In this document: positions 36,201 through 58,034 of the stretch, piece by piece | Numbering within the stretch: position 1 is the stretch's first letter | Layout: every line of letters starts with the position of its first letter | Origin: Crambe crambe | Lineage: Eukaryota > Porifera > Demospongiae > Poecilosclerida > Crambeidae | Length of the DNA: 64,000 bases | Assembly: GCA_963924555.1 (NCBI GenBank) | Contig: OZ004584.1 | Span: 4,215,001-4,279,000 of the forward strand | Direction of reading: 5' to 3' | Translations under genes and position numbers: made by a program | Notes under the pieces: model-generated | Databases searched by the model: none | The model's input: only the letters and a program-made list of their open reading frames with translations | What the model was told of the DNA's origin: nothing

Positions 36201-39200
36201 AAGGTCATCATCACCAGTGCCCAGGGAGCTCATGTGAAGATCAGCCAGTGGATGTAGCAGCAGGCACAGCATGTCCTTAATTGTTGGTGTATCCATACAT
36301 GAAATGGGTACAAGGAGTAGCTACAACATCCATCCACAAGCTAGTGGTAAGTTAGTGTAAACCTACAGCAAAAGGCCTTATACAGGGAGTGTACTTGTAC
36401 TACAACAGCAATGGTGTCAGCCTCATCGTAGTGGGTGGGTGCCTCAGGGGAAGGAACCAGACTTTGACAACGAATCTTGGTATATAATCAACTTTAGTTG
36501 TAAGATTTCCAGTTAAGCATTACCAATGGCTCTGTTTCTACATGTACTGTCAATAAGCAAATAAAATAAATTGTTATTAAATGCATGCATTGTAGTGAAA
36601 CTAGGCTTAGGTAGATTATGCTCAAGATTTCTCCAGCTATTCTATTCCACAATGCTCCAAAATGCTACCTATTATTCCCTCAAATGCACCAATTATTCCC
36701 TAAAATGCATCAATTATTCCCACTATTATTCTTAAATAAGCTAATGATTAAGCTTCCCCAGTCCACCAGTAGCAGAGCTAGAAGTAGCTTAGCCATTGCC
36801 ATAAACTAACAGCTGCATGTAGTTGTCCATAATAATGATTCAGGTCTTAGGTATTGATATAGCTAGACACTGTCACAGTGTAGCAAGAAACCACCTCAGG
36901 CAGTAGAGAGTGACAGAAGTCTTTGTTTTCAGGCTTGCAGAAGCTCCAATTATTCTCATTATGCTCAAAATATGATTCTGGCATTATGCTTGATTCCAGG
37001 AAGTCCCAAATTATTCCCAAAATTATGCTGGCATAATCTACCTAAGTGAAACCAATCAGGGGAAGCAAAGCGAGTCCAACACTGCATGGTGATGATAACC
37101 TATAGATCTTTATCTCATACAATAACATTGCAGCTTCTTTTCATGACATTGGGTACACTGAGCACTGAGCATGCGTGCTCGCCCCATAATGCTTGCAAAT
37201 TCTCAGTCCACCTGTGACTGCCATGAGAAAATTACAGCCAGGTGTCTGTATCGAGATGTATGACACAGCTATACACATGTATGACTGTGATATGGCAGTT
37301 TCTTGTTGGATGGCAAGGGTGTGTGTAGTGGAAGGATAGGAACTTACTTGAGTAGTTTTTTGAGGATGCTGCAAGAACCATTATTATCAGCTGCTTCTTC
37401 TTACCTTCATCAGTGGTGTCATTATGAAAGAGTTCAAGTGACAGTTGACTTGTAATACAATTTGTACATAATTTCGCAGAGTAAATAAGATTTCCAGGTT
37501 TACAGTAATTACTATTTAATGGCCAATATTATTAATACGAAGTTGAATAATTTCCATAACAAGTTTATTATGATAACAAAGTCGCTGGTGAGAGTTGTGT
37601 ATTGAGTAGTAAGATTATTACTATCATTGGCTCTTCCTCAAATCTACACGCCAAGATTATGTGTATGGTTGACTCCTTATGGGGATAATGAATGAATAAC
37701 ATTATTGTTATGCACTGAGATCACATGAGGTATTTATCTCTACAAAAAACAACTGATGGTGTGATGTGTATCATAAATTAAAGACAAAGGTCACATCTTA
37801 TCTACATACATATGAAAAATTGAAAAACAATATTTTGGTTTAATCCATATGTACGTAGGGGTACCTCAACACTTTTTTTTTTGGTGCTAGAGAGGTATCC
37901 ACTTCTTTGTTATTACTAGTCTGCCTATGTACTCATACTGGTGCATTATTTTTTGTTTTTTTTTTGTGCAATAGTAAAAGTATACTCATACAATGGCAAA
38001 ATACCAGCCAATTTCCTTCATGAAAGTTAAACAGCATTCCAAACAGGTTTACTTGCACAATATTTTACCTACACACCATGTATCAGTCAGCATCAATACA
38101 GACCGTAAGCTCTTATGACTATTAATATGTAGTTGGTATCACATGACTGGTGCATTTTCTCCCTCTCGATGTGACTATTCTGTAGTTGGTATCACATGAC
38201 TGGTGCATGTTGTAGGTCACAGGATTGGTGCATTTCCCCCCTCTCAATGTGGAAGCTTAGGAGGAAGTTCCCCAGCATCTCCAGGCCTTCAGTAAGAGAT
38301 GGGCAAAAGTTAAGCATTCGAAAATTTGGTGGTGGTTGGGGGGGGGGGGGGGGGGGGGAGAGCAAATGAAATTAATGTATGTGTGTGTTATGGCAATATT
38401 TCTACTTATAATGTAGAAAAATTGACCCATCACTCTAAAATCTTGAATTATTACTGGATTGATTTTAACTCTATGCCTTTTACATGTAGACGGTACACCA
38501 TTTCCTCCTGTGGAGTCTCCTTATCAAGTCTCTGAGACGATTTCCACAGTGACCATTGGATGGGGGTATTCCCCTGTGCCAAGTGACCACCCCCTCCTTG
38601 GATACAGCATACGGTACTGGTTGCAAAATCAAATGCAAGAACAAGCCGTCACTGTGCAAACTCACGATAATGCAACTACCATCACATTGGACTCTTTAAA
38701 ACCTGGCAGCACATATTCTGTGGTGGTGCATGGAAGGAACTCGCTTGGTCTGAGTGAAGCCGTAGTGCCTGTTAATATCAGCACGATAAGTGGGGAATTA
38801 CCTCCTGCCCCTACTATTATTAATGTCAGTGTTGAGATGATGAATGAGAGAAGAGAGGCTGTTGTCACTGTGTCATGGATGGTAAGTTACATTAAAGAAT
38901 AAGAAACAGTAAAGAAGTAGGCGCTACCTTTTACCTCTAACAAGTGAGTGCAAAAATTTCTGTTAAGTAGGGATGGCCCCAAAATTTAGCTGGACTATGA
39001 CTGCAGCATCCGTATTGCCCCAAAATCTAGCTAGATTATGTACTTTGACTGCAACATCATATCAATCCAATCCTGGTTCGATATGATGCTGCAGTCAAAG
39101 TACGTAATCTAGTTAAATTTTGGGGGGAATGGCTTGGTTTGATATGATGATGCAGTCATTTCCAGCTACAGCAAGGGTGGTGCTGTTGGGCGACAGAGTG

Positions 39201-42200
39201 CTCCTATTATCGGTCTCATTACAGAGTGAGTGATCTGGTTAAGAACAGGATTCACTGCATCTATAACATCTACAGTTGACACTCTGTAATGACTGGCCAA
39301 CACTAGTCCCGTGTTTGACCATTGTAATAGGCCTGGCCAGGTATGCATTTAGCCAAGTCTCGTATATACTTCAACACTCTTTAATGTGCTCATACTCACA
39401 CAGAGTGTCCTCTTTGAAGTACATAATCACTCTTTAATGCTCTCATGCTCGCACAGAGTGTCCTCTTTGTATATTCATCCTTACAAAAGCCATAATAATT
39501 ATTCTGTAGTACATACACCATTCATTATTGCATTGTTTCCAGCTCCTTATACAGGAGAAATAAGTGAAAACCTCCAAATTTAGTGCTCTCATTGGTATAC
39601 TAAGTATAATGGTGATAGTGCATATTTAGCCTCTGTATAAAGAACACAGACAAAATAGTGTCCTAACTTGTCCATTATCCATTTCACACAATGGGGAAGT
39701 CCTATTGGTTTCATTGTGGTGGCTTGTAACCCTATCACATTCTTCTGGTGAACATGGTGAAGTATCATAGGACAATCCAAAATGAAAACCCAATTTCTAG
39801 CTAAAGAAATCTGGCAAGTGCAAAGTGGTTTGGTTGGGGAATAGCTACAGCTTATCTTAATTAATTGTTGCAATTTGTGGTCAGGTGGTATGATCAGGTG
39901 GAGATTATTTACCAGGTTAATTAAGTATGCTTGCCCATCTGTTGTAGCTACAGCCTGTAGGGGTTTCATCCTTTTGTTTAGAAAGCCAGGGTGGGGAGTT
40001 TCACACTTCATGTACAAAAAAATAATGTAGGAACAACATGCTTTAGGTTGGCTATCAAATTTCAATAGCCCCAAGCCAAGTGAAGCTTTAGGAGAGGGGG
40101 CTTAGTCAGAGATGACACTCGGCCGGGGGGGGGGGGGTGGGGGGTTTCTGCCTAGTATTCTTGAGTGGTGGCCTGAGATTCATTTTTCCATGCCCACTTT
40201 TATTAGGAATTATCCCTTTGGCATCATTGATGTGTAGTACAATCCTAAAGTTACTACAGTTAAGTATGAGTGGTGGCTGAAATGGCCAAGTGGTTGCCGA
40301 AATAACCATAGTGGTGGCCAAAATGGCCACTGTTGACCAGTGTGGGCAGAACCCTGACACTTCGCATTATTCTTGTCATACTGCTACAGTAGATTGTCCA
40401 TAAGCTTTATGACAGGGTCTTTGCTTGGAGAGGGCACTTCCTGCATACTGTTCCTGATAAGAGATGGGCCATTATTAACAGGCTTCAGTGCAGTAAGTGA
40501 TCATGCAGGCTGTCTCCCTAGCCCACATCACTGTCACAATGCATGGCTGCATATATGGCTTTCTTGTTGTTGCTCGGGCTGGTCAACCAAGGAAGGAGTG
40601 ACCTTTTGTACCTGTATTCAAGCTACATACATCACTTCAATTTATCAGGGTTCTCATTCAGGTGGGGGGGGGGGGGGGGGGAGGGAGGGAGGGTGTATTT
40701 TGTGTTTAGTAAAGTTCATACTAAAAAAGAATTTTTTTTTTTGAACTTTTCCATCTATTATGTATGACATGTAGTCCATTCACAAACTCACAAGGAGAGG
40801 CTCAAAGGCAAAGCAATGAAAATTATGTGTCCTCAGTTCATTTTATGTTCTCAATACGTATGTGTTGTGAGTGAGCTTTCGCTGAGTAAGACGTGTATTT
40901 TCATATAAACAAAGCAAACTCCCTCTGCGTGGTTTGAGTGGTTTGAGTCTATCGTAGTCATAATAATTAATTTTGTCCTAATAAGTGAAATGTGATTGAT
41001 AAACACATGATAGTATAGACATTTGGGACTAAAAGTATCTTTAAAAAGTTTTTTTTTTCTTCTTCTTCTTGCTTTGGGACACTAACTGATGGAATATTAT
41101 GCATTTGGCTGAGCAATTGATCATTGTATCTCCTAGTTAGAGATAATGTGGTTTTACTTTGGTGGGTAAACTGTACTGGTTTACTGAGCACGTGTCCTAG
41201 TTTACTGAGCATGTGTCCTAGTTTACTGAGCACATGTCCTAGTTTACTGAGCATGTATCCTAGTTTACTGAGCATGTGTGCTTGCCCCATAATCAGATAG
41301 TACAAAAGCAAAAATTGCATCTGTGGCTCCACAACTTTTTTTTTCTTTTTTTGCCAAGATGTGTAAGGGGAGGAAATTGAGTTGAACTGAAGACACAGAA
41401 GTGCCACAAGGCACAGGAACAGATCTAGCCAGATATGCACTTTCTGTTTGATTAAAGGGTATATACTTCCTGTATGATGAAGGGTGTACACTTCCTGTGT
41501 GATGAAGGGTGTACACTTCCTGTGTGATGAAGGGTGTACATTTCCTGTGTGATGAAAGGTATAAACTTCCTGTTTGAAGATTAGAGACTTGGTTTAGCAG
41601 TGGCTTGAGAATTGGTATAAAGGATATTGTAATGTGCCTTTATTAAAGTCCACAGAAGAATGTGGGGAGAGCATTGATAGCTTAATTGTTATGGCTACAA
41701 CATTGATCTGTAACATTCCACTATATTGGGCATTTTATATGGGACAGCTAATGATCATTTTTTTATTTCTGTGCAGGGTGTGACTATAGAAGCTGATGTC
41801 ACGACACCAGTGCAAAATTACCTGGTCTATTATTCAAGCTCAGCGTCTGAAATGCTTGTGGCCACTACAAGCAATAGCTCTAGGAATCATTCCTTCACAC
41901 TGCGGACGTCTGGATCATTCCGTGTCGGAGTCGCTTCTAGGAACTTTGCTGGTCGAAGTGATATTTCGTATTTTCATGAAGTCTCGAGTAAGTGATTTGT
42001 AATTTCCCCTTAGATGCCAAAAATGGGTCTTAGTACAAGGTAGGCTAGTACCTCAAGTAATAGTGGTTTTGTATTCATTTATTTTCATCAGTTGTAATCA
42101 GCTTTTATTAGGGTAATATATTTTCTTGAACATGACCACAATAATAAATTATTAACTTCTGCAATCTGATTTTAGTTGATTAGAAGATGGCATTCCCAGA

Positions 42201-44256
42201 GCTGGAATAGCTGCTGATCATCATTGGTCATTTTTCTAATCACTAATCACCCACCCTCCCTCCATACACCCACCTCCCCTGTATCCACCCTCAATATCAG
42301 CAGCGTTCTGATTTCATTAGAGAATTACATCATAATAAACTCGAATTTTTCTTGAGTCAAATTATAAGTTTGGGGGTGTGTCTTGTTGGTGTGGTGTCAT
42401 TTTGGGGTGATGGCCCCTCCACTCAAAATCTGCTTCCTACCCTTCTCCTTTGATGATAGAGTAGGTCCTTTGTTTTACAAAGCATTAGTTTCATCTACTA
42501 AAGGAAAAAAAGGTTTTGATGGGGGGATGTTTGTGTAGTTAAAGTGGGGAGCTAGATTGGTGCAGTTGTCGCAGTTTTACTCTCCATGCACAGCAAGTTA
42601 GCTGAAGTGACATTTGCCATTACCATCAGACTGCTTATGTAGCTATGTTTTGTACTGAGTCCATTTCTGACCAGTGGAGTGACTTTCACTAAAATCAACT
42701 GCAGAGATTAATGGAGATACACCTGAATCACCTGACTTCCCACTCTTTCAGACTATGATTGTGTCTTCAAACAATTATACTAATGAATCAGGACAAGCAT
42801 TCTCATGTATAGGTGGTAGCTAAATGTGGCTAAGGATTCATAATCATGTTTGACTATTAGTTGTAAAAGATCTGAAGACCCATTGGAATGGGCGATTGTG
42901 TTATGACTTTAAGAGCATGGCTCCCATGGAACGGTCTCATGTTGGTTTATCATAAGTAGTCGAAGGAGAGTCCATAGTGAAAGTATTATTTCAGGGCACA
43001 TGCATGGCTGATCCTTAATAAACCCTATTGAGACCGAGTCTATTCTGCCATTTTAGGGATTCTCTGGCTGACAGACTATTGACTCCATTCCATGCTGTAG
43101 TCATGCTGCTTAGTGTTATGAGTCTTATCACTTACCAGTGAATTATGATAACTTCTCTGTGACAAGACCAAGACATGACCATATTAGCTAATCTAGCTGG
43201 TTTGTCAGAAAATTAATTGGGACGAGCAAGTGAGCTCCACGCTAGGGAGCCTGGCGGGTTGGTTTTTTTTTGTTTTTTTGTTTTTTTGTTTTATATATAT
43301 ATATATATATATATTGTTTTAACATTCCAGACATGACAACCTTTGGATAAAGTTGAGAATGTGTGCTTGGCCAACTATGCTTGCATTTTCCCTAAATGCC
43401 GATCCTCAGCACTGCAACACACATACACACACACACGTATGCGGCGTGTGAATGCCAAGTGAGATAAGGTGTAGGTAAAGAAAGTGGGTGACTGTTATGC
43501 AAACAATTGGCCAGAGTTAATTAGACACGTGCATAGTCACAGGTGTGATTGTTAAAAGGAAATAACAGTATGCACTGAGTTATCTAATGTGTGACCTTGA
43601 AAGTACAAACCAAAATACAGTGCAAAACGGATGTGTCGTGTATACATAGACTAATTTTCTATATTCACACCACTTTGATCATAGGTAGCCTGTGATAAGC
43701 TTCCTACAGTATATGATAGGGAAGGAAAGGCCCAAGGGGATTGGGAACAAGGGAATGAGGCTTATCTGGTGACTGTTACTATCATGACATTGATTTATTA
43801 GGATTTGTAGACATGTACGGATAATGTAATATACTAGGGAAATTGGTGTAGTAAACATAATGTACATGCCCTCCACTACTACTATAGCTTATGTAGTTGA
43901 TGATCATTACCAAGTTCACATCACACTTGATGACCATTCTAGATAGTCATGATTTTAATACAAGTGTTCATCTACAATTTGTGTTCTTCTTTGCAGAAAT
44001 TTCGTTCCCTGCGGCCACCCCAATAATCCTCATTGCACCAGTGGTGTCCATCTGCCTCTTCTTTGTGTTGCTAAGTATCATCACCTTTCTGCTTATATTC
44101 TTCTTGCGTAAGAAGACACATTCATATGATTTTAACAATCAAAACATGAAGTTGGACGGGAAATCTACTGATTCCACTGATTCAAAAAAAAGCTCCTACT
44201 CATCAGAATCAATTGAACTAGGAGAACTTCACAAAAGAACTGAGTCACTTCAATAA
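33240..44256 (+). CDS. Ig/FN3 type I transmembrane receptor, five exons
   Basis: Exons 33240-33384, 35214-35534, 38490-38881, 41777-41987 and 43997-44256 join in phase into 442 residues. Exon 1 ends in a hydrophobic signal-like stretch (TIFYLAAGILLSTFQ) after an unusually long basic lead; it is the least certain exon. Exon 2 (about residues 49-155) is an Ig-like domain with the TIPCHV and DHKTFCHCKV cysteine strands. Exon 3 encodes one FN3 domain (GYSIRYWLQNQ; LDSLKPGSTYSVVVHGRN) and the start of a second, which exon 4 completes (FRVGVASRNFAG). Exon 5 has the membrane helix (about 366-393), the stop-transfer RKK and a Ser-rich tail with SSESIELGEL. An adhesion or recognition role is inferred from the Ig-FN3 architecture. 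The large introns are full of repeats and could hide further exons. An AATAAA lies at 44513. Confidence 0.78.
33820..34270. repeat. Degenerate tandem repeat, about 130-bp unit, in intron 1
   Basis: The words caagtgattaagttaattg (33931, 34090, 34213), caggcccaatattctg (34017, 34159) and catgttgcaggtgtgtaga (34053, 34191) recur in the same order, giving about three diverged copies. Confidence 0.7.
36602..37045. mobile_element. Small inverted-repeat element in receptor intron 2
   Basis: CTTAGGTAGATTATGC at about 36606 is mirrored by GCATAATCTACCTAAG at about 37031-37046. The 7-mer gtgaaac stands at 36595-36601 and 37046-37052, suggesting a 7-bp target duplication, although the two ends are then offset by a few bases. 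The interior contains attattccc repeats. Confidence 0.5.
38120..38240. repeat. Tandem repeat, about 60 bp
   Basis: tagttggtatcacatgactg then gtgcat occurs twice, with a third degenerate copy (gtcacaggattggtgcat). Followed at 38338-38358 by a G21 run just upstream of the FN3 exon. Confidence 0.7.
38968..39165. repeat. Inverted-repeat cluster in receptor intron 3
   Basis: An arm with ccccaaaatctagctagatt then atgtactttgactgcaacat is mirrored around about 39070 by atgatgctgcagtcaaagta then cgtaatctagttaaattttg. A partial direct copy precedes it (38971) and another follows (39133). A hairpin-forming MITE relic is likely. Confidence 0.65.
41160..41280. repeat. Minisatellite, about 21-bp unit
   Basis: Five to six copies of tttactgagcatgtgtcctag with small variation, in receptor intron 3. 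Confidence 0.85.
41440..41575. repeat. Minisatellite, about 26-bp unit
   Basis: About five copies of acttcctgtgtgatgaaggg then tgtac, in receptor intron 3. The distance between the two minisatellites is small, but the units are unrelated. Confidence 0.85.
43262..43315. repeat. T-run and (TA)n microsatellite
   Basis: Interrupted T runs (tttttttttgttttttt) pass into roughly eleven TA units, in receptor intron 4. Confidence 0.9.
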
Positions 44257-46035
44257 ACAATGTAATAGCAACAAGATATCACATCATCTGATTTTCTCAC
44301 TCATTATAATTATCCAGCAGCTGTGCACGCACGTGTGTAGTGATCCTGAAACCTAACACTAAGTGCACAGGCATAATAATTAGCCTGCTAATACACCTAT
44401 AATAGGGTTTGCTCCACTGGCCCAGTGGAACGTCAACTGAGCAAATACTGCACCCAAACATTTGAAAGTGCATGTGGAATACAAGTGTTGCTCCCACACA
44501 ACCTTGTGCCTGAATAAAACAATTATTAATGCAGCTGAAAAGATCGTATCTGATATAGGGCCTGAGAACATCAATTTTGATACTGCCCTATTTGCCTAAA
44601 AAATAGCTAATAGGCAAATAGGGCAGTATCACAACAAACTATTCTGTTTCTTATCATGGAATGTTCTCAGGCCCTATATCAGATAATGCAAGGAAGTCCT
44701 CTAAGAGACTTCATCAAAGTTGACTGGCGTGATAACAAGGGGAAAACTATGTTAGCTCCAATGGAAGTCCAGATTACTACTTGAAAAAGGAGACATGCAA
44801 GATAACAATGGCTGGTTTCCTCTAATTATTGCAGGGGATCGTCCTCTCATAGCATAATAGAGAGCTAATACAATTATGAAGCCTCACATTTTCAAATTGG
44901 TATGCTTTCTAATGGACATTGCATAAGTTAACTTTCTTTCCCTCTAATCATTATTGTATGTAGTGAATTTTAATTCTGCCCTCAGTTATGTGATAGCTAT
45001 GTAATGATCTAGTGGCAGATCTAGGCCTTTCTTAAGAAGCACCCTTTTCTTGCCAAGTAGGTGGGAAATAATTATTTTACATAAAAGAAGAAGAAGTAGC
45101 TAGCTATAAAGAAATAGAAAGTAGCCATGCTGCAACGGACTGGGTGTAGTTATGGATGAATAATGGGTGTGGCTAGCCTTCCCTCCTAACAAGAAATACC
45201 CCTGGATCTGGTCCCCATAATCTACACACCATCCAAATGAACACATTAAACTGCAATAGCTACGTAGGCTAAACTCACTAAACATTGAAGGAGATTTTCT
45301 AGAAGTGGACCATTTGAGTTGCCAGATGGCTACAAGTCAGTAAAAGACTGAACACTGCACTTAGGATACTGGAAAAGCCTTCAAAGTAGGACACCAATTA
45401 GCCACCACCCGCTCGAGTCCTCATTTATGCAATTCATAATGGTGAATCTATCTTGTGGGTTTGTTCTTCCAGCTCCTCCTCCTTCCCTCCTATGAGTGTA
45501 AGGGGGAGGGGGGACTACTGTACCTTTGTCATCTTGACCCATACACACCTTATGGCTGTGGCCCCTCTGTTGGGAATGCGAGATGGAGAGTGGCTACTTA
45601 AGTACAAATCTCTAGAATTAAGTGGTGTATATTGGAGTATCAAGGGTGATGTCATGGTTGTGGTTAGGAAAAATGACAAACTGTGATGTGCAGGCTCTAA
45701 TGAAAAATGCGCAAGTCTGCAGAGGTCGAGTGGGGAAGTCCCTGACATCCCCCCTCCTTCTAAAGACCGGAGCCGGGTGTCCTTCTGGTCAGTCCAGGCC
45801 CATCTTGATAAACTGTCAGCATTGCCTCCAAGGTACGTAAGGTCAAGTCCAATAATCATTGGACTCATGCATGATTGTGTGTGTGTGTGTGTGTGTGTGC
45901 ATGTGTGTTAAAGCTATGACAGTAGAATCATGCATTAGCTACGAGCACTCTATACAATATCCATGCTAACTACTAGCTAGTGGTGTGCAGAAGTTCAAAG
46001 TTCAAGATGATGACATCCTGTAACTATATAAAGGG
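44257..46035. other. Intergenic region between receptor and Calx-beta gene
   Basis: Holds the receptor 3' UTR, a hairpin element (44548-44684), a dispersed repeat near 45338 shared with 23506, and a (GT)n run near 45877-45900. No gene seen; the overlapping two-strand open frames near 45453-45868 have no support. Confidence 0.5.
44548..44684. mobile_element. Hairpin MITE-like element, 137 bp
   Basis: The outer arms ATCTGATATAGGGCCTGAGA and CTCAGGCCCTATATCAGAT are inverse repeats, and an inner pair GATACTGCCCTATTTGCCT / AGGCAAATAGGGCAGTATC forms a second stem, separated by a short A/T loop. Confidence 0.75.
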
Positions 46036-49000
46036 ATCATGGTCATATCTGAGTGGCTTGCTATAGTGGAATCATGAATCTGCTTGGTGCTGCGTTGATT
46101 GGAATTTTGATATCTTTTTCTTCTTGTCAAAGGAGTAAGCTAAAACTTGTTAGTAGCTCATAGCTAGCAAGCTATATATATATAGCTAGCTGGTAAATGA
46201 TCATTCATACAGCTATGCTGCTGTTCAGTACTGTAAGTCTTTGCATAGTCCAAGTTTAATAGCTAATTATGAGATCCAATAAATTAATTGTGTCTTGAGT
46301 GACATATTTTTAGTAGTCAATTAGCTAAGGATCCAGGAATCGGCCTGCTACGTAAATGCATGCAAGAGCCTCATTTTATAAATTATTGAAGTAACTCATT
46401 GCAATAAGATGGATAAATTAAAGAAACAAATAAATAGCTAAGATCATACACTGTGAGTGAAGTTTCAATAGTTGTGAGGCATGTATAGCTTATAGTCATG
46501 CAATCTATATCAGCTATATACGGTGAGATGGAAACCATAATAGGCTGTGTGGCTCATTCTTATTAAGTGGCAATAGCCAATAATGCAAAGTCGAAGGTGG
46601 GCTTGAAATGATATAGTTGTCAAGGAGAGCTAATGGATTTCTGCTATTGAAAGAAAAACAAACTTGTAGGTATCTAATAAAACATCAGGTGTGCCTCTAA
46701 ACTCCAAGAATGTGGGTTGGATAAATATTGAACATTTTATCAGAACTGTGCTATAACCCCCCCCCCCCCCCCCCCCCCCCCCCACCCCACCCCACTCTCC
46801 CATCTCAAATAACATTATTATTTATTTATAGCCCCAAAATTAACATGCTACTCAAGTAAGAGCTGCCGTGGTAGTGAGGTGAATGTCGGACAATCTGGGT
46901 GCTGTGTAGCTGGAGGAGGAGGTCTCTCTTTCATGACCACACTTAATGGAACTTGTCAGGAATGCTACGGTATGTAGCTATGGCCACCATGCATTATTAT
47001 AATATTATATATACTGCTGATAGGCAATGAGACCTTCACTGCTGAAGGCAGCAAGTTTTTTCTTGGAATTTTTGCTAATCCTTCACAGTTATACTTTTTT
47101 CGTATTGGAAAATTTCGTTTGGCAGTCAGTCCTGTACGTAGTTCACAAGTTGATTTCATAGTGAATGCTTCTGGAGTGCCAACAGATTACACTGCTCCTA
47201 TTGAAGTGTCAATGGATGCTGCTACTGTTTCAGTTGATAGTGATGGAGTCAGAGACAGAGCTATAGTCATAAAATCTACCAACAATGACCCTCTCTCTGT
47301 AGTGGCTTATGCTGAAGAGTTCACTTCATTGGACACGTTCAAGCTACTCCCATGTGTAAATCTTCCTGTTAGAGTTTATGAGTACTATGCTGTGTCAGTT
47401 CCACTAGCACAAGTCCCAGTAGATTGGGTTGAAGACGATTATGAAAGTGATGAAAAATTTGAGTCACCACAGGGTAACAGCACCATTGTTATTGTCACTT
47501 CTGAACAAAGCACTCAGGTTAATATCACTCTCACTCAAAATGTCTCCATAACAGCTCCAGACCTCCTACAGCAAATCCCCGGAGGTAAATTTGAAGCAGG
47601 TGTTCCTGCCACAGTTCTCCTTCCTAGCAAGGCACAGACTCTATTGATTTACAGTTTGAATGACTTGACTGGGTCTAGAATCATGTCTAATAAACCTATT
47701 TCCCTCATCAGTGGCCATCAGTGCGGAACTATTCCAGAAAATGTGAACTTCTGTGATCATATGGCGGAGCAGATCCCTCCTACTGCAACATGGGGAAAGA
47801 CTTTTGTCACATCTGCCATTGCAGGCCGAACCTCTTTTGACATATTCAAAGCAATAGCATCACAGAGCAACACTGTCATCAACATTTCATGCATAAATGG
47901 CCAAGGACAAAATTTCCAACAAATCCAGCTACAACAGAGTGGGCAATTTGAAAATATCAACGTGTCTTCTGGGAGTGCCTGTTACATCACTTCCACTCGC
48001 CCTATTTTACTGGTACAATTCTCAGTTGCCAGCACTTTGGACAGGCCATATACTTTTCGAGGTGATCCCTTTATGGTCGTAGTTCCACCTGTTGAACAGT
48101 ATCGGACAAGCTACATTATTGATACATTGCAAGCTACAGCAATCCCTGGTGTGATAAGTAATGAAGTACACTATATTAATGTGATGGTGCCAGAGGGTGT
48201 GGATCGTGAAGGACTGCATCTCAATGGAACTGTGCTTGAAGCAAGTTTTATGTCAATTCCTTGTGATAGTAATATTCGAAATGGACCATCTTGTGGCATG
48301 GCAGCTACCATTCAAGTGCCCATTGGTCGTCACAATTTGACTCATACAAGTGGAGCTATCTTTAATGCCATATCGTACACTCTCTCTTTCAGAGCTGGAG
48401 CCGGATATTTTGCTGGAATGACTCAGTTTCCAACAGCACGTATGCTTATATTATTGCATATTCAGTAATTTGATTGATGCTCTATTATCCTTCTTATAGT
48501 GCCAAGAATATCATTTAGTAAGGAAGTGTTTGAAGTATTTGAAAATCAGTCTTTTGCAGCTATTGAGATTATTAGAAGTGGGGATTTGAGTGGTGCAGGC
48601 TCATGTCCAATTCACACACTCCAGCTGTCTACCAAGAACGCTGCTCATGGTTAGCCAGTCCTATGCACAAGACAAGCAGCCATTTTTCCTAGTCCTAGGT
48701 CCTAGAGGTCCTAGGGCTAGGCCTATAGGTATGGTGCAGTTTTGAATAGCTGTTGTTTATTTATTATCACTAGATGTTAAAGATTTCTCTGCTATGAATA
48801 CGTCTATTGCATTTCTGCCACAACAAAGACAGATAGTACTCCATATTCCTCTGACCAATGATATATTTCCTGAAGCAGTGGAAGAATTTGAAGTGTATTT
48901 AAGCACCTGTCCAGGAGTCTTGATCGATTACCCTGCTTACACTACTGTTAGAATACTGAATGATGATTCTGACTTGCCAGGTATGGTAGCTAGTGACAAC

Positions 49001-52000
49001 AACAGCCAGTAACATTATTAGCATGCAATAGCAACACTGTTGTAAGAAAAAATAGAAGCTCAATAGAGCAATAGCTAGGATCATGGTCATATCTGAGTGG
49101 CTTGCTATAATTATTATAGTGGAATCATGAATCTGCTTGGTGCTGCGTTAATTGGAGTTTTGATATCTTTTTCTTCTTATCAAAAAACGTATTAGTAGCT
49201 ATAGCTAGCTAGCTCTATGGCTGGTAAATGATCATTCATACAGCTAATTGTAATTATTTGCTGCTGGTACTGTAAGACTTCCATCTTTAGTAGCTAATTA
49301 TGAGATCCAATTGCGTCTTGAGTGACATTTTTTGTAGTCAATTAAGGATCCAGGAATTGGCCTGCTAAATGCATGCAAGAGCCTCATTTTCGGAGTAGCT
49401 AATTAACTCATTGAGCAGCAATGATAAATTAAACAAACGAACAAATAAACAAATAAGATCATAGACTGTGAGTGAAGTTTCAATAGTTGTGAGGCATGTA
49501 TAGCTTATAGTCATGCAATCTATAATAGATGAAATCTACGGAGAGATGGAAACCATAATAGGCTGTGTGGCTCATTCTCATTAAGTGGCAATAGCCAATA
49601 ATGCAAAGTGGAAGGTGATAGTTGTCAAGGAGAGCTAATGGATTTCTGCTATTGAAAGGAAAATGCGCTTGTAACAATCTAATAAAATGCACTTAACAGT
49701 GAGAAAGAGTGTTGAAAGACATGGACCTACAGGAATGAAAATGATGATGTTTCACACTGTCCCAAACAGATGTGTTGTTTGTTATATATGACATGGAAAG
49801 TAATGGAAGATTATTATCTGGTGTTGGTTATCCAGCCTATGTTCAGAAGAGCAAGAATGTGGGTTGGATATGAAGCTAAATATTAAAACAGAATTCTGCT
49901 ATAACCCCCTACTCCACCCCCACTCTCCCATCTCAAATAACATTATTATTTATTTATTTATAGCCCCAAAATTAACATGCTACTCAAGTAAGAGCTGCCG
50001 TGGTAGTGAGGTGAATGTCAGACAATCTGAGTGCTGTGTAGCTGGAGGAGGAGGCCTCTCTTTCATGACCACACTTAATGGAACTTGTCAGGAATGCTAC
50101 AGTATGTAGCTATGGCTACCATGCATTATTATAATATTATATATACTGCTGATAGGCAATGAGACCTTCACTGCTGAAGGCAGCACGTTTTTTTTTGGAA
50201 TTTTTGCTAATCCTTCACAGTTACCCTTTTTTCGTATTGGAAAATTTCGTTTGGCAGTCAGTCCTGTACGTAGTTCTCAAGTTGATTTCATAGTGAATGC
50301 TTCTGGAGTGCCAACAGATTACACTGCTCCTATTGAAGTGTCAATGGATGCTGCTACTGTTTCAGTTGATAGTGATGGAGTCAGAGACAGAGCTATAGTC
50401 ATAGAATCTACCAACAATGACCCTCTCTCTGTAGTGGCTTATGCTGAAGAGTTCACTTCATCGGACACGTTCAAGCCACTCCCATGTGTAAATCTTCCTG
50501 TGAGAGTTTATGAGTACTATGCTGTGTCAGTTCCACTAGCACAAGTCCCAGTAGATCGGGTTGAAGACGATTATGAAAGTGATAAAGAATTTGAGTCACC
50601 ACAGGGTAACAGCACCATTGTTATTGTCACTTCTGAACAAAGCACTCAGGTTAATATCACTCTCACTCAAAATGTCTCCATAACAGCTCCAGACCTCCTA
50701 CAGCAAATCCCTGGAGGTAAATTTGAAGCGGGTGTTCCTGCCACAGTTCTCCTTCCTAGCAAGGCACAGACTCTATTGATTTACAGTTTGAATGACTTGA
50801 CTGGGTCTAGAATCACGTCTAATAAACCTATTTCCCTCATCAGTGGCCATCAGTGCGGAACTGTTCCAGAAAATGTGAACTTCTGTGATCATATGGCGGA
50901 GCAGATCCCTCCTACTGCAACATGGGGAAAGACTTTTGTCACATCTGCCATTGCAGGCCGAACCTCTTTTGACATATTCAAAGCAATAGCATCACAGAGC
51001 AACACTGTCATCAACATTTCATGCATAAATAGCCAAGGACAAAATTTCCAACAAATCCAGCTACAACAGAGTGGGCAATTTGAAAATATCAATGTGTCTT
51101 CTGGGAGTGCCTGTTATATCACTTCAACTTGCCCTATTTTACTGGTACAATTCTCAGTTGCCAGCACTTTGGACAAGCCAAGTACTTTTCGAGGTGATCC
51201 TTTTATGGTCGTAATTCCACCTGTTGAACAGTATCGGACAAGCTACATCGTTGATACTTTGCAAGCTACAGCAATCCTTGGTGTGACAATTAATGGAGTA
51301 CACTATATTAATGTGATGGTGCCAGAGGGTGTGGATCGTGAAGGACTGCATCTCAATGGAACTGTGCTTGAAGCAAGTTTTATGTCAATTCCTTGTGATA
51401 GTAATATTCGAAATGGACCATCTTGTGGCATGTCAGCTCAAATTCGAGTGCCCATTGGTCGTCACAATTTGACACATACAAGTGGAGCTATCTTTAATGC
51501 CATATCGTACACTCTTGCTTTCAGAGCTGGAGCTGGATATTTTGCTGGAATGACTCAGTTTCCAACAGCACGTATGCTTATATTATTGCATATTCAGTAA
51601 TTTGATTGATGCTCTATTATCCTTCTTATAGTGCCAAGAATATCATTTAGTAAGGAAGTGTTTGAAGTATTTGAAAATCAATCTTTTGCAGCTATTGACA
51701 TTATTAGAAGTGGGGATTTGAGTGGTGCAGGCTCATGTCCAATTCACACACTCCAGCTGTCTACCAAGAATGCTGCTCATGGTTAGCCAATCCTATGCAC
51801 AAGACAAGCAACCATTTTTCCTAGTCCTAGGGCTAGGCCTATAGGTATGGTGCAGTTTTGAATAGCTGTTGTTTATTTATTATCACTAGATGTTAAAGAT
51901 TTCTCTGCTATGAATACGTCTATTGCATTTCTGCCACAACAAAGACAGATAGTACTCCATATTCCTCTGACCAATGATATATTTCCTGAAGCAGTGGAAG

Positions 52001-52150
52001 AATTTGAAGTGTATTTAAGTGCCTGTCCAGGAGTCTTCATCGATTGCCCTGCTTACACTACTGTTAGAATACTGAATGATGATTCTGACTTGCCAGGTAT
52101 GGTAGCTAGTGGCAACACTGTTGTAAGTAAAACAGAAGCTATATATAGCA
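46036..52150 (+). repeat. Tandem segmental duplication, two copies of about 3.05 kb
   Basis: Copy 1 begins near 46036 and copy 2 near 49080, both with ggatcatggtcatatctgag then the same signal-peptide exon. Similarity runs through introns and exons to about 49040 and 52120. The paired large exons (47024-48439 and 50156-51571) are the same length and differ at about 22 of the 449 residues compared (47119-48468 against 50251-51600). Copy 1 alone has a C37 run (46757-46793) where copy 2 has a short mixed tract. Confidence 0.95.
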
Positions 52151-54433
52151 ATGATAATAATAGAGCTATATACTTATCGTATTCATGATTAATTTTTGCA
52201 GTGATGACTATCAGCTTTGCTGATGTGATTATCGAAGTAGCAGAAGGAGATTGTATGGTGAGTTTTATTCTTGAAAAAACTAGAGGAGCTGTTGGACCAG
52301 TGTCGGTTCAAATAGCAACAAATAATGATGGAACTTCCAGAGGTAATGATAGCTAGGTATAAGAATGATGATTAATTTTAATAAATATCTGAACCATATA
52401 AATCAACAGGTGGTGCTGACTATATTGATATCAATGAGACTGTCACGTTTCAGATCAGTGACATTTCGCTGCCAGTTGTGGTGTTTGTTCTTGATGATGA
52501 GGTTTTGGAAGACGTGGAAAATTTTACTGCTTCTCTTGTTCCTGTTCCTGGTCTGTTTCCTGTTGCTGTTGGAGATGACATGGCAACAGTCACCATAGTG
52601 GATAATGATCGTAAGAAAAACAATAAAACATATAGCTATATTATATATGCATTAATGTTGGTTAGTGTAAATTGGGAAAGCAGTGTTTTACAATTTTATA
52701 TTATCATACAGCTCACTTGTGATTACTTGTTACCCCAGTTTATTTTTCAGGTATTAAACCGACATATTAATTAATTTTATTATCAAATTTCCAAATTTAC
52801 AGTATATTTAGCAGGTGAATGAAAAACACTTTAGCTATTTTATTGGCAATCTTATTTTAGTTGCTGTGATTGGGTTCAGTCAGTTGCAGTATTCTACTGA
52901 GGAGTTTAGCAGGGAGGTGGTGATCACTGTGGAACTGCTGCATGGAACTTTGGCGAGCAGCATAGAGATTCTTCTACTAACATCTGATGGAACTGCTAAA
53001 AGTAATAACAGTTTTTTGCTATTATTTCTAATTACATAACTTACATTATTTAGGTGGAAGTGATTATTCTAAAGTGTCAACACATCTGACGTTCGATCCA
53101 TTCAAAACCTCCATTTCTAGATCACTGACCATTATAGATGATAACATTACTGAGGGAATTGAGTTTCTCAAGTGTATTCTAATGGTGTCCCCTCAGGTTT
53201 CACGAGTGTTAATCCCTCAAAATGAAACGATTGTGACCATAGTAGATAATGATGGTGAGTAGTTTGTAGTTGGACGCTATAAGAAAAGTTATTGATAGTT
53301 ATTAGGTAGCTATGATAAACAATACTTTGTAAACAGTTGTTTTCATTGGATTACATGGAGTTAATCCTGTCGTGAGGGAAGATGAAGAAAATTCCAAAGT
53401 TAATATTAGTATCATTCAAGGAGTTTTGAGTGAGCCAGTGACTCTCCGTCTCTTAGCTGTGAACATCGATGCAAAAGGCAAGTTATTATCATGCATGACT
53501 GTGTACTAATTTTTTTCATGTGGATATCTCTTGTATTTACTTCACAGCTTAATTATTTTAATTATTATTGATGATAATTATAATAACAATAAAATTGACT
53601 GCTGTATAATAATAATAGGTGGAGATGATTTTATTGCTCTGAACAGAACAGTCATAGTTGGTGATAGTTCAGTGCTGGAGGTGTGTGTGGGGATTATAGA
53701 TGATAGCGAGTTTGAAGGTGACACTGATGAGAGATTCATGCTACTTGCTACGGTCGAAGGAGGACAGGATTTCAAAGGAAAAGTGATCTTGCAGCCAAAT
53801 TCTGTTATCTTTGCTATTGAGGATAATGATTGTAAGTCAGCTAGTTTTTTGAGTTAGGTTGAAGCAATAATACAACGGAACCTTGCTAATGTGAGCTTAA
53901 AAATTTTCAAGGACTCAAACCATTATAACAGAAGTCAACTGTATTAATTATTTTGTTCCTAGTTATTCATATTGGATTCAAGGACAGTTTGTATTCTGTG
54001 TCTGAGGATGCTGGAAAGGTGACTCTGTTGGTGAAGAGTGATGTCATGGATCTAAAGGATGTGAATGTGGAGTATTTCTACTTAAATGGCACAGCTCAAG
54101 GTAGTGCTGATTGACAGTTTTATGAAGAGCGTTATTTTATCTTGTTTTGCCTATCAGATGGAACTGATGTTGTAGTTGGATCAGGATCTCTCCTGTTTTC
54201 TCCTGGGTCTATGTATGCTCGTGTTTCTATTCCCATCACTGATGATTCACTTACAGAGGCCAATGAAGTTTTCACAGTTCGTCTTCGATCACTTGGTGGA
54301 AGTGCCATATTATTACCTGCTAAAAGGGACGCCGTGGTGACTATACTTGATGATGATGGTAATAATAATTTACTTTTAGATTACGGAAATAATTAAGAAC
54401 ACCGTTACTTATTTCTCTGTAAAGGAGCTCAGT

Positions 54434-54502
<69 letters not shown>

Positions 54503-54964
54503 TGTTATAACCTTTGCCTTGTTATACTGCAGCTGTTGTGATTGGGTTTGACAATCCTCATTACAATGTTGAGGAGAATGTGACCTCAGGAAGTGCTACA
54601 GTACAAGTTGCAATCATGGAAGGAGAACTGCTACAATCTGTGGCAGTCACCTTACAAACCTTAGATGCCATAGCACTAGGTGTGTAGCTCTGCTTGCATG
54701 CATTTATAATAAAATCATAATCACACAATAATAATTATTTTGACTTGATTCCCAGATGGAGCTGACTACAGAGCAATTACACCAACCTTGCTCACCTTTA
54801 ATGAAAGTATCAATTCCTTCAATGTCACAGTCTTTATCATCAATGACAACATAAAAGAGATAAATGAAAAGTTCATTCTATTCTTGAATGTTACTGGTAA
54901 AGATTCTCAAGTGAAGTTGCTAAATTCTCAGTTTACTACAGTTAATATTTTGGACGATGACTAA
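46074..54964 (+). CDS. Secreted IgGFc-binding/Calx-beta multidomain protein
   Basis: Nineteen exons, every intron phase 1, giving 1871 residues: 46074-46134, 46832-46969, 47024-48439, 48500-48649, 48774-48980, 49964-50101, 50156-51571, 51632-51781, 51890-52096, 52202-52342, 52410-52610, 52861-53001, 53054-53254, 53337-53477, 53619-53831, 53963-54100, 54158-54358, 54533-54679, 54756-54964. Signal peptide (MNLLGAALIGILISFSS), a six-Cys segment, an IgGFc-binding-type domain (SLISGHQCGT...FCDHMAEQIPPTATWGKTF), then a Calx-beta domain; the block repeats once (about residues 21-657 and 658-1294). Five further two-exon Calx-beta domains end in DND/DDD motifs. There is no membrane helix. Calx-beta domains bind Ca2+ and occur in sponge aggregation factors; an extracellular adhesion role is inferred. 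The intron after 53477 uses a GC donor. Two separate genes are possible but less likely (see findings). Confidence 0.85.
49129..49200 (+). pseudogene. Degenerate signal-peptide exon of the duplicated copy
   Basis: The start ATGAATCTGCTTGGTGCTGC matches exon 1 of the Calx-beta gene nearly base for base, but the donor region (CAAAGGAgtaagc in copy 1) is altered to CAAAAAACgtatt. A donor here would leave the wrong phase, and the frame otherwise stops after QKTY. It probably no longer functions as a first exon. Confidence 0.6.
54434..54501. repeat. (AAT)n microsatellite
   Basis: More than twenty uninterrupted AAT/ATA units inside the intron 54359-54532 of the Calx-beta gene. Confidence 0.95.
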
Positions 54965-57071
54965 AGAGCTAACGGCAGCTGCTAATTATAACTTTCTTTT
55001 CATCATAGAGTGTGTGACTGATTCAATTAGTCTAATATATTAATTTTACTGTTTAGTATTGTAATGGATACTGTTATGGACTAGATAACTGGAACAGTAT
55101 CATCATGTTTACTTGTGTATTGTCATTATTATTCTTTTGTGGTCAATTGTGTGTGGTCATGTGATAAGCTAGCTATAAGTAGAGATTTATTATCATCATA
55201 GCTCAGTGTGCACTTTAAAAAGGTTTCTAAGATCTCTTTACTTGGGCTGCGGCTAAAGCGTGCAAAGACATTACAGATACTTCTAATAATTATGACTTAT
55301 CTGGACTTATTGGCTGGCAGTAACAGGTGCATTGATACAGATCTAGAAAGATGTTTTGAGGGGAAAATTACACCTCAGAACTCCTCCCTACAATACTATC
55401 AACCATGCATCCACTAGTGAGAATGGTGCCTCCACAAATGCCACTTTCTCAAGAGAACCCCAGGACAGCTTGTTGCCACTGGAGAGCAAGTAGGGGGTTC
55501 CCCTGACACATCTGAGTGAAGGATAAAATTCATACAAGAAACACAAAACTATAATGTACGTAGCTGGCTAAGTATAAGTACAACAAAAATGTAAAATATC
55601 TTGCTAGCTATATGCAGTAAACATACAGCTACTAGAAAATAGAGGAGTATAATAATGGAAGTGATGTACATAGATATTAAGTTCAGATATAACTGACTAC
55701 TTTATGTATGTGAAATAATGTTCAGGTTAGCTGATTAAATTTCACAAGCTACAGCTACTTGTAGTAGCTAGCTACTATTATTTGTATAAGCATGCAATCA
55801 ACAGTTTGTGTAACTTCAATGTTATCTACATAGTCATTCATAAGAACATGGAAATATCTAAAAGTGTTCAATGGTAGCCTTTCTGATATTCTTTCTTTTT
55901 CATGACTGACTTGATTTGCAGACAATAAATAAAATCATTGCTGCTATGATTGTAATGTGCAGTTTTAATTTTAAGAACACAACTACGTATGTACAGTGAA
56001 AAAAAAAATGGTATCTATAATTATTAGTTAATGGAACTGCTGCTTCCATGATGTAACCTACAGAAATGTAGAGAATCCCACTGACACTATAGTTATACCC
56101 TTGATGATGTTATGGCTGCTAAACACTAATTTGGTTGATAGTCAGGCAGGTCAGACCATATTTTACCCTTCAAACTGGATTTTTCCAGGGCCCAAACCCC
56201 ACTAGATGGCACACTTCGAGCTTCATGCACTCCTTGATAGTAGTAGTCTTATGGGCCCTTTTCAATTCCTCCTGGACCCTGCTCGCATATACTAGGAAGG
56301 CACTCCCCAGGCTCTATTGAAAACAGAGCCTGGTATCAATTGTTTGTGCATGTGTGTAGTATACAGGCAATAACCTGAAAATTTACTGAGTGAGATTCCT
56401 TTTCTTTGTCCAGTTTTTCCATACCATTTGATATGCTCAACAAGACTGTTTTTAGGCTGGTTTTATTGTTTGGTGCTCAGGCATCCATTTATAGGGAATA
56501 TACGAATTCTGAAGCTAACGCGAACAACTGATACCAGACTTTCTTTAGAGAGGTCGCAGAAGAGTGCCCAAGGCTAAAAGCCACATGAGTCTTTTAGTAC
56601 AGATTGAGACACTGTTGCAATGGAGGACATGATAGCTCACCTGACTATCTTTCCACCTCTCCCTCTCCCTCTTAGGCTGATAACTTTGTATGGGTGTGGT
56701 GGATAGGATGGTGCTTTGTAATTGGTTGAATGTGAATGCAATGGCACTGTTGGATGGGGTGTGGCCACATATTGATCTAAAAAGTTAATCAATACAGTAC
56801 GATAAAAACCATTGACTCTCCGCAATACTTTTCATGTTCAAGGTAAAAGGAACAAAGCTGAATCTGAAATCCTTGGAACTAATTATGTGTTGCCTCTCTA
56901 ATTAGGTGGACACTAAACCAACATAGCTAGTTAGTAGAGGGCATTCAACTTTGGAAATTAAGCATTATGGAAACAATAATTGTGTCCTATAGCTAATTAG
57001 CTCTATTTATGAACACTGCATGGAAATGTGACCATAGATACTATAACCTCTGGAGGTTATACGTAGTATCT
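54965..57071. other. Intergenic spacer downstream of the Calx-beta gene
   Basis: Contains the 3' UTR of the Calx-beta gene and AT-rich sequence. No gene, RNA gene or clear element recognised. Short open frames at 55208-55417 and 56135-56320 have no motif or splice support. Confidence 0.5.
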
Positions 57072-57077
57072 ATGATG

Positions 57078-58034
57078 TATGGAAGCCGAGAAGGGCACCT
57101 TTCCCCCGACAACTTAAAATTTGTCGGAGATTTGTCGGCGACATTCAGATTTGTCAGAGATTTGTCGGGGACATTCAGATTTGCCGGGAATTTGTCGGAG
57201 ACATTCAGATTTGTCGGAAATTTGTCGGAGATTTGTCGGGGACATTCAGATTTGTCGGGAATTTGTCGGAGGATATTCAGATTTGTCAGAGATTTGTCGG
57301 GACATTCAGATTTGTCAGGAATTTGTCGGAGATTTGTCGGGGACATTCAGATTTGTCGGGAATTTGTCCGGGAATTTGTCGGAGATTTGTCGGGGACATT
57401 CAGATTTGTCGGAGGACGTGACATTCAGATTTGTCGGGAATTTGTCGGAGATTTGTCGGGGACATTCGGGAATTTGTCGGAGACATTCAGATTTGTCGGG
57501 AATTTGTCGGAGACATTCAGATTTGTCGGGAATTTGTCGGAGACATTCAGATTTGTCGGGAATTTGTCGGAGATTTGTCGGGGACATTCGAATGTCCCCG
57601 ACAAATTCCCGACAAATCTGAATGTCCCCGACAAATCTCCGACAAATTCCCGACAAATCTAAATGTCCTCCGACAAATTCCCGACAAATCTGTATGTCCT
57701 CCGACAAATTCCCGACAAATTTGAATGTCCCCGACAAATCTCCGACAAATTCCCGACAAATCTGAATGTCCTCTGACAAATTCCCGACAAATCTGAATGT
57801 CCTCCGACAAATTCCCGACAAATCTGAATGTCCCCGACAAATCTCCGACAAATTCCCGACAAATCTGAATGTCCTCCGACAAATTCCCGACAAATCTGAG
57901 ACTGAATGTACCCGACAAATCTCCGACAAATTCCCGACAAATCTGACAAATCTCCGACAAATCTGAATGTCCCCGACAAATCTCCGACAAATTTTAAGTT
58001 GTCGGGGGAAAAAGTGCCCTTCTCGGCTTCCATA
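57078..58034. mobile_element. GTCGG-repeat foldback element, 957 bp
   Basis: Ends TATGGAAGCCGAGAAGGGCAC and its inverse, flanked by the 6-bp repeat atgatg (57072-57077 and 58035-58040). Inside, the left arm (to about 57589) is built of tandem units around GGACATTCAGATTTGTCGG and AATTTGTCGGAGATTTGTCG; from 57590 the right arm is made of the inverse units. The centre is a palindrome (GGGGACATTCGAATGTCCCC). Several frames stay open across it on both strands only because the units lack stops. Interpreted as a foldback-type transposon. Confidence 0.85.

Follow-up and report, generated by a model that had tools for sequence, protein, structure and literature searches.

Tandem copies of a 5′ gene segment, with a decayed first exon between two IgGFc-binding/Calx-beta blocks, in a sponge gene

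Results and discussion

A 19-exon gene with two nearly identical blocks

The window that we analyzed is a stretch of 64,000 nt of DNA from the sponge Crambe crambe, at 4215001–4279000 of contig C6, and all positions given without a contig name are positions in this window. We rebuilt a 19-exon gene model on the plus strand at 46074–54964 with explicit splice sites, and the joined exons give a single open frame with a coding sequence of 5616 nt (1871 amino acids) and one stop codon, at its end. All 18 introns, i.e., every internal junction of the model, are in phase 1; 17 of them begin with GT and one with GC (at 53478), and all 18 end with AG. Judged by eye, exons farther upstream on the same strand (38490–44255) look like those of a fibronectin-III-like receptor whose membrane-spanning stretch lies near 44020–44110.

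Exon 1 (46074–46134) encodes what we judge by eye to be a signal peptide, MNLLGAALIGILISFSSCQR, and ends in phase 1. It is followed on the plus strand by block 1 (46832–48980), which consists of exons 2–5 (46832–46969, 47024–48439, 48500–48649, and 48774–48980), and by block 2 (49964–52096), which has the same layout in exons 6–9 (49964–50101, 50156–51571, 51632–51781, and 51890–52096). Within block 1, the large exon 3 carries an IgGFc_binding domain and exons 4 and 5 carry Calx-beta. Exons 10–19 (52202–54964) encode five two-exon Calx-beta domains and end with TAA. The Pfam profile for IgGFc_binding (PF17517; cut-off 25.6 bits) scores 178.4 bits for block 1 read with exon 1, and 180.3 and 178.4 bits for the large exons of blocks 1 and 2, respectively. 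The Calx-beta profile (PF03160; cut-off 27 bits) scores 36.8 bits in block 1 and 267.3 bits in the tail, the latter in five stretches. A Pfam scan at E ≤ 0.1 that covered block 1 and the tail, the block 2 protein being 95% identical to that of block 1, found no family besides these two.

The exon lengths are equal between the blocks (138, 1416, 150, and 207 nt), and there are no coding indels. Over 637 codons each, the blocks are identical at 1858 of 1911 nt, with 53 mismatches, and of the 636 whole codons compared, 604 encode the same residue and 32 a different one. The exon and block coordinates of the initial annotation were exact to the base in the rebuilt model, and its description of two near-identical blocks that begin and end in phase 1, with 19 exon lengths that keep the frame to the terminal stop, holds as well. 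The frame fit of the blocks should not be counted as independent evidence, because it is automatic once both breakpoints sit in phase 1 introns.

On this model, the gene appears to encode one secreted repeat-type extracellular protein with two IgGFc_binding and Calx-beta blocks followed by five Calx-beta domains. Judged solely by its domain families, the protein is most likely a secreted adhesion or recognition molecule in which the Calx-beta domains would serve as Ca2+-binding spacers. No PDB sequence matched the large exon of copy 1 in a search at E ≤ 0.01. One study of Halichondria panicea names both IgGFc-binding and Calx-beta, alongside other domains, in the legend of a figure that deals with pattern recognition receptors (PMC8242945).

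The duplicated unit includes the signal-peptide exon

By repeat finding and pairwise alignment, the repeat starts at about 46034, upstream of exon 1, and recurs at about 49077. The duplicated unit is about 3.04 kb long on the plus strand (copy 1, 46034–49076, with edges uncertain by about 10–20 nt; copy 2, 49077–52145, with a 3′ edge uncertain by about 20 nt), it includes the signal-peptide exon, and it is larger than the span first proposed. The in-frame tandem duplication and the two-block reading of the initial annotation thus stand, but what was copied is the front of the gene, signal exon included, rather than a pure domain block. Within it, a core at 46818–49001 in copy 1 is highly alike, introns included, to the core of copy 2 at 49950–52117.

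A TATA-like motif upstream of exon 1, at 46025–46032, lies just outside the duplicated unit. The word TATATA occurs once in 45900–46074 and is absent from 48990–49127, and a 21-mer spanning the motif and the edge of the unit has a single occurrence in the window even when up to three mismatches are allowed. When the flanks of the unit (43000–46033 and 52160–55160) were searched against 43000–56160 by blastn on the plus strand (E ≤ 1e-3), there was no other match for either. Growth by unequal exchange, the mechanism put forward originally, is without direct support, this search having given no repeat at the unit borders.

In the scheme that we propose, the first step, which the sequence itself shows, was a tandem duplication of the 5′ part of a single-block gene; the copied piece begins just below the TATA-like motif and ends in the intron that follows exon 5. 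This step, together with the skipping of the copied first exon, its decay, and the exchange with a locus on contig C10 that are described below, forms a joint account that we regard as probable.

A ghost of exon 1 lies in the inter-block intron

Aligning the two copies reveals a ghost copy of exon 1 at 49127–49188 on the plus strand. Copy 2 keeps the ATG (49127) and most of the signal exon, and the donor has been lost by an 11-nt deletion; the next GT (49189) is in phase 2, and there is an in-frame TAG at 49193–49195. The ghost lies within a predicted inter-block intron of 983 nt (48981–49963, plus strand), which would join 48980 to 49964 in phase 1. Its splice-site words are those of introns 9 and 1: the donor at 52096 and the acceptor at 46832, both of which are used elsewhere in the model, recur at its two ends.

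Going by how splicing works, transcripts from the old promoter would, as the second step, be spliced from exon 5 of copy 1 directly into copy 2 at its exon 2, with the phase 1 introns preserving the frame across this predicted junction. Skipping of the copied exon 1 is predicted because it was a first exon, with no acceptor of its own, and because it came without the TATA-like motif. As the third step, the ghost exon decayed, as its deleted donor shows. Copying the front of a gene in tandem can in this way supply a second front module in frame, and no new splice site is required because a duplicated first exon carries no acceptor. The ghost exon is a record of the duplication event.

A comparable preference has been described at the RNA level. 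In one human prostate-cell study, 11 of 16 read-through fusions of neighboring genes (cis-SAGe) entered the downstream gene at its second exon (PMC4450057). As in the scheme above, the downstream first exon is skipped and the second exon is joined; those fusions are RNA events between different neighbors, whereas here we predict a fixed structure of one duplication-born gene.

The ghost may not be entirely silent. An acceptor-like site precedes it at 49120 (score 8.2), and the GT at 49189 after it scores 5.6; the scoring matrix was built from the 18 introns of the gene itself, with the block duplicates among them, and is therefore lenient for block-like sites. Together, these sites could admit a 69-nt exon with an early in-frame TGA (frame read by eye), so that inclusion of the ghost could truncate the protein of some transcripts after block 1. 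We had initially described the splice site of the ghost as destroyed outright, and have softened this since a fair-scoring GT persists, in the wrong phase.

The retained ATG and signal exon also bear on whether the locus might instead be two tandem genes, with copy 1 a truncated gene that ends by read-through of its last donor and copy 2 a full gene with its own start. Read-through of the donor at 48980 would indeed reach a stop (49010–49012) after about 10 codons, and 48981–49963 holds two AATAAA and two ATTAAA words. We consider two genes improbable, because the ghost exon reaches its stop without an in-phase GT, the stretch 48990–49127 has no TATA-like motif, and the AATAAA at 49444 is matched exactly by one in intron 1 of copy 1 (at 46429) and so is not a new 3′ end.

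Another reading is that exon 1 is joined to either block 1 or block 2 by alternative splicing from one promoter, giving one-block and two-block proteins. A junction from exon 1 to 49964 would also be in frame, every junction being in phase 1. We regard such splicing as rather unlikely, and it could coexist with the duplication history without replacing that history.

The two copies are a mosaic

Part of intron 1 (46135–46757, plus strand) has strongly diverged from its copy at 49179–49904. In 46135–46682, counting only columns at least 3 from a gap, 59 of 429 sites differ between the copies, with 12 indels, and in the very gappy remainder (46683–46757) 21 of 60 sites differ. In the non-coding DNA of the core, only 4 of 267 sites differ, with two indels (Fisher p = 2.5e-9 against intron 1, late intron 1 and the 3′ flank being left out of the test for their poor alignment). 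With a gap margin of 8, intron 1 still has 33 mismatches in 312 sites (p = 3.8e-6 against the core non-coding DNA). The 5′ flank of the core, with exon 1, has 61 mismatches in 507 sites, and its 3′ flank within the unit, which is short and gappy, has 1 in 11 usable columns. A segment scan placed the divergent stretch at 46097–46792 with a likelihood ratio of 145, the largest value in 60 shuffles being 15.

Over the first 100 nt of the unit, a stretch that takes in exon 1, the copies have 2 mismatches in 91 aligned sites and two indels; this resembles the core (p = 0.65) but not intron 1 (p = 0.001). Within intron 1 there is a closer patch at 46516–46599, where 4 of 84 sites differ, and a long C-rich run at 46757–46784 in copy 1 whose counterpart in copy 2 is shorter and broken. 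Between the coding sequences of the two blocks, dS is 0.041 and dN 0.025 (NG86), for a dN/dS of 0.6. From these comparisons, we conclude that the two copies are a mosaic in which intron 1 has diverged and the rest is alike.

As the fourth step of the scheme, this mosaic would have come either from an older duplication that was partly homogenized or from a recent one with an odd intron 1, and we regard the two as nearly equally likely. The older duplication, whose core and 5′ end would have been homogenized by gene conversion or crossing-over, is slightly favored. The contrast between intron 1 and the core non-coding DNA speaks for it, and the low divergence of the first 100 nt and of the patch inside intron 1 speak against it. 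Our first reading, in which the coding core alone was homogenized after an old duplication, was dropped because the first 100 nt are as little diverged as the core.

In the alternative, the whole unit is young, at 2–3% divergence, and one copy has an unusual intron 1, either through fast evolution or through conversion from a divergent allele. This is a serious contender, which we hold at somewhat short of an even chance. The same low divergence at the 5′ end and in the core, both non-coding and synonymous, fits it well, but intron 1 is 10–14% diverged with its 12 indels in about 550 nt, also well away from gaps, and a uniformly young copy needs a further event to account for this. The duplication had originally been called recent; most of the unit agrees with that, and intron 1, at about 14%, does not.

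Divergence also bears on whether the assembly wrote two haplotypes of a single-block gene in series. Divergence of 2–3% is within the possible allelic range of an outbred invertebrate, and the divergent intron 1 could be allelic. Against this, the signal exon has decayed in copy 2 alone, large indels separate the copies in intron 1, and the duplication does not extend into the sequence immediately flanking the unit. The genome comprises 143 Mb in 119 contigs, and contig C10 has 8.7 Mb, which suggests long reads. In addition, a genome search with the unit matched only contig C6 itself and a paralogue on C10, so there is no separate haplotig of the locus. We hold such an artifact to be very improbable. 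Contig C63, tried as a gauge of allelic divergence, had a blastn match only to itself among the 10 loci compared.

A paralogue on C10 polarizes the duplication and shares the large exon

The C10 paralogue lies on the minus strand from about 3591529 down to at least 3581650. Its signal exon has a donor at the same place (CAAGTAAGCT) and, in the stretches read, is followed by a single exon 2, a single large IgGFc exon, the first pair of Calx-beta exons, and then more Calx-beta exons, all in the order found at C6. Among the PF17517 matches listed for the genome, one falls here. Since it has a single block and retains the exon 1 donor, we take the single block to be the older state, with the double block and the loss of the ghost's donor probably derived.

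The similarity between the two loci is concentrated in a tract of 1385 nt at 47041–48425 (plus strand; block 2 equivalent, 50173–51557) that aligns at 93.9% identity to C10:3590465–3589081, while the other aligned exons are 69–77% identical. For the large exon, dS against C10 is 0.157 for copy 1 and 0.164 for copy 2, as compared with 1.07 for six other exons taken together (316 codons; exon 2 upstream and five exons downstream). Third positions differ at 51 of 471 codons in exon 3 and at 139 of 316 in the six other exons (p = 2.4e-26). The similarity changes close to 47041 and 48425, i.e., the tract nearly coincides with the large exon.

Interlocus gene conversion in multigene families leaves tracts that are far more similar than the sequence on either side. 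The large exon of C6 and C10 has this form, a similar segment with diverged homologous flanks on both sides, and was probably exchanged between the two loci by gene conversion. The case is the same in kind as those known, and here the tract nearly matches one large exon common to two contigs. Unique sites in the large exon number 20 in each tandem copy and 79 in C10, with 2 that could not be resolved, and thus the blocks would have shared sequence after the C10 exchange. The dS values (0.16 against 0.04) likewise suggest that the exchange predates the last sharing of sequence between the two blocks. The C6–C10 tract is a warning that the identity of the large exon does not date the genes carrying it.

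The large exon in the wider family

A genome search with the PF17517 profile gave 51 matches. Near 5.88 Mb on C10 a pair of loci, and on C13 three neighbors, show 89–90% similarity centered on the large exon, with exon dS of 0.19–0.20 in three comparisons; outside the exon, the C10 pair has only short EGF-region matches, of 55 and 32 nt. We compared 52 locus pairs, drawn from 20 of the 51 matches with a best stretch of at least 700 nt and at least 84% (one pair, L012–L017, overlaps itself). In 8 of the 52, there is no similarity outside the exon, and in many it extends over hundreds of bases, although these outside lengths may count overlapping pieces twice. Similarity limited to the exon is thus borne out only in part as a general rule of the family.

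A broader proposal is that the large IgGFc_binding exon is an exchangeable cassette, repeatedly converted both from one tandem block to another and from one chromosome to another as the remainder of each gene diverges. We think this unlikely as it stands. Were it true, a family of recognition proteins would share and reshuffle one binding module, which would bear on how animal recognition molecules diversify.

Two further loci were noted. At L041 (C10:5872001–5881900), an EGF-like exon separates two IgGFc exons that lie 0.7 kb apart on the same strand, and this locus may be another multi-block gene. At G000:C9:4224783–4225019, a Calx-beta match lies within an open frame of 10128 codons.

Constraint on the two blocks

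The codons that differ between the blocks comprise 32 nonsynonymous and 17 synonymous changes. In a neutral simulation, P(N ≤ 32) was 0.078 and P(no stop) 0.22, so a depletion of nonsynonymous changes by purifying selection is not significant between the blocks, and the open frame of both blocks does not serve as proof of function, 22% of neutral runs also being without a stop. When changes in the large exon were polarized, they fell on the three codon positions as 7:7:6 in copy 1, 8:5:7 in copy 2, and 17:18:44 in C10, and the near-even spread in both tandem copies is as for weakly constrained sequence.

These results raise the prospect that constraint is relaxed on both blocks and that the locus is heading to a pseudogene. 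It is favored by the even codon-position spread and by nonsynonymous changes that are not significantly below neutral, as well as by block residue 148, which is L in copy 1 and S in copy 2, in C10, and in all 9 paralogues (of 20 loci) used for the residue counts. However, there is no stop and no coding indel, the GT/GC–AG splice sites are kept, and all seven large-exon cysteines that 8 or 9 of the 9 paralogues retain are present in both copies. We find such decay doubtful. A cysteine lost from copy 1 at block residue 371 was considered as a broken conserved disulfide and rejected, the site being Ala in 8 of 9 paralogues and Lys in the other.

Comparison with known systems

In phase 1 extracellular repeat proteins, internal domain duplication is known to add tandem-copied exons that are read as extra domains. 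The present gene is alike in its tandemly copied phase 1 exons and differs in that the first exon was taken along and left as a ghost in the inter-block intron. FCGBP-type mucin-like proteins have von Willebrand D and TIL repeats after the IgGFc domain. Our gene resembles them in its strong match to the same domain family (PF17517) and differs in coupling this domain to Calx-beta; in the Pfam scan (E ≤ 0.1), neither block 1 nor the tail gave a von Willebrand D or TIL match. Sponge aggregation-factor genes combine Calx-beta arrays with a Wreath-type domain and adhesion activity, and here the Calx-beta array is similar but an IgGFc_binding block stands at the front. A literature search of titles and abstract openings found, among the matches listed, no description of this gene arrangement. 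Overall, we regard the locus as a clear, legible example of known processes.

An inverted array downstream of the gene

Downstream, at 57114–58010, is a 0.9-kb inverted array of the word ATTTGTCGGG and its reverse complement, arranged head to head near 57590 with inverted flanks. A 29-mer from this array has 17 exact occurrences genome-wide, which fall into three clusters, two of them on C6 and one on C11, and the array looks like a dispersed foldback element.
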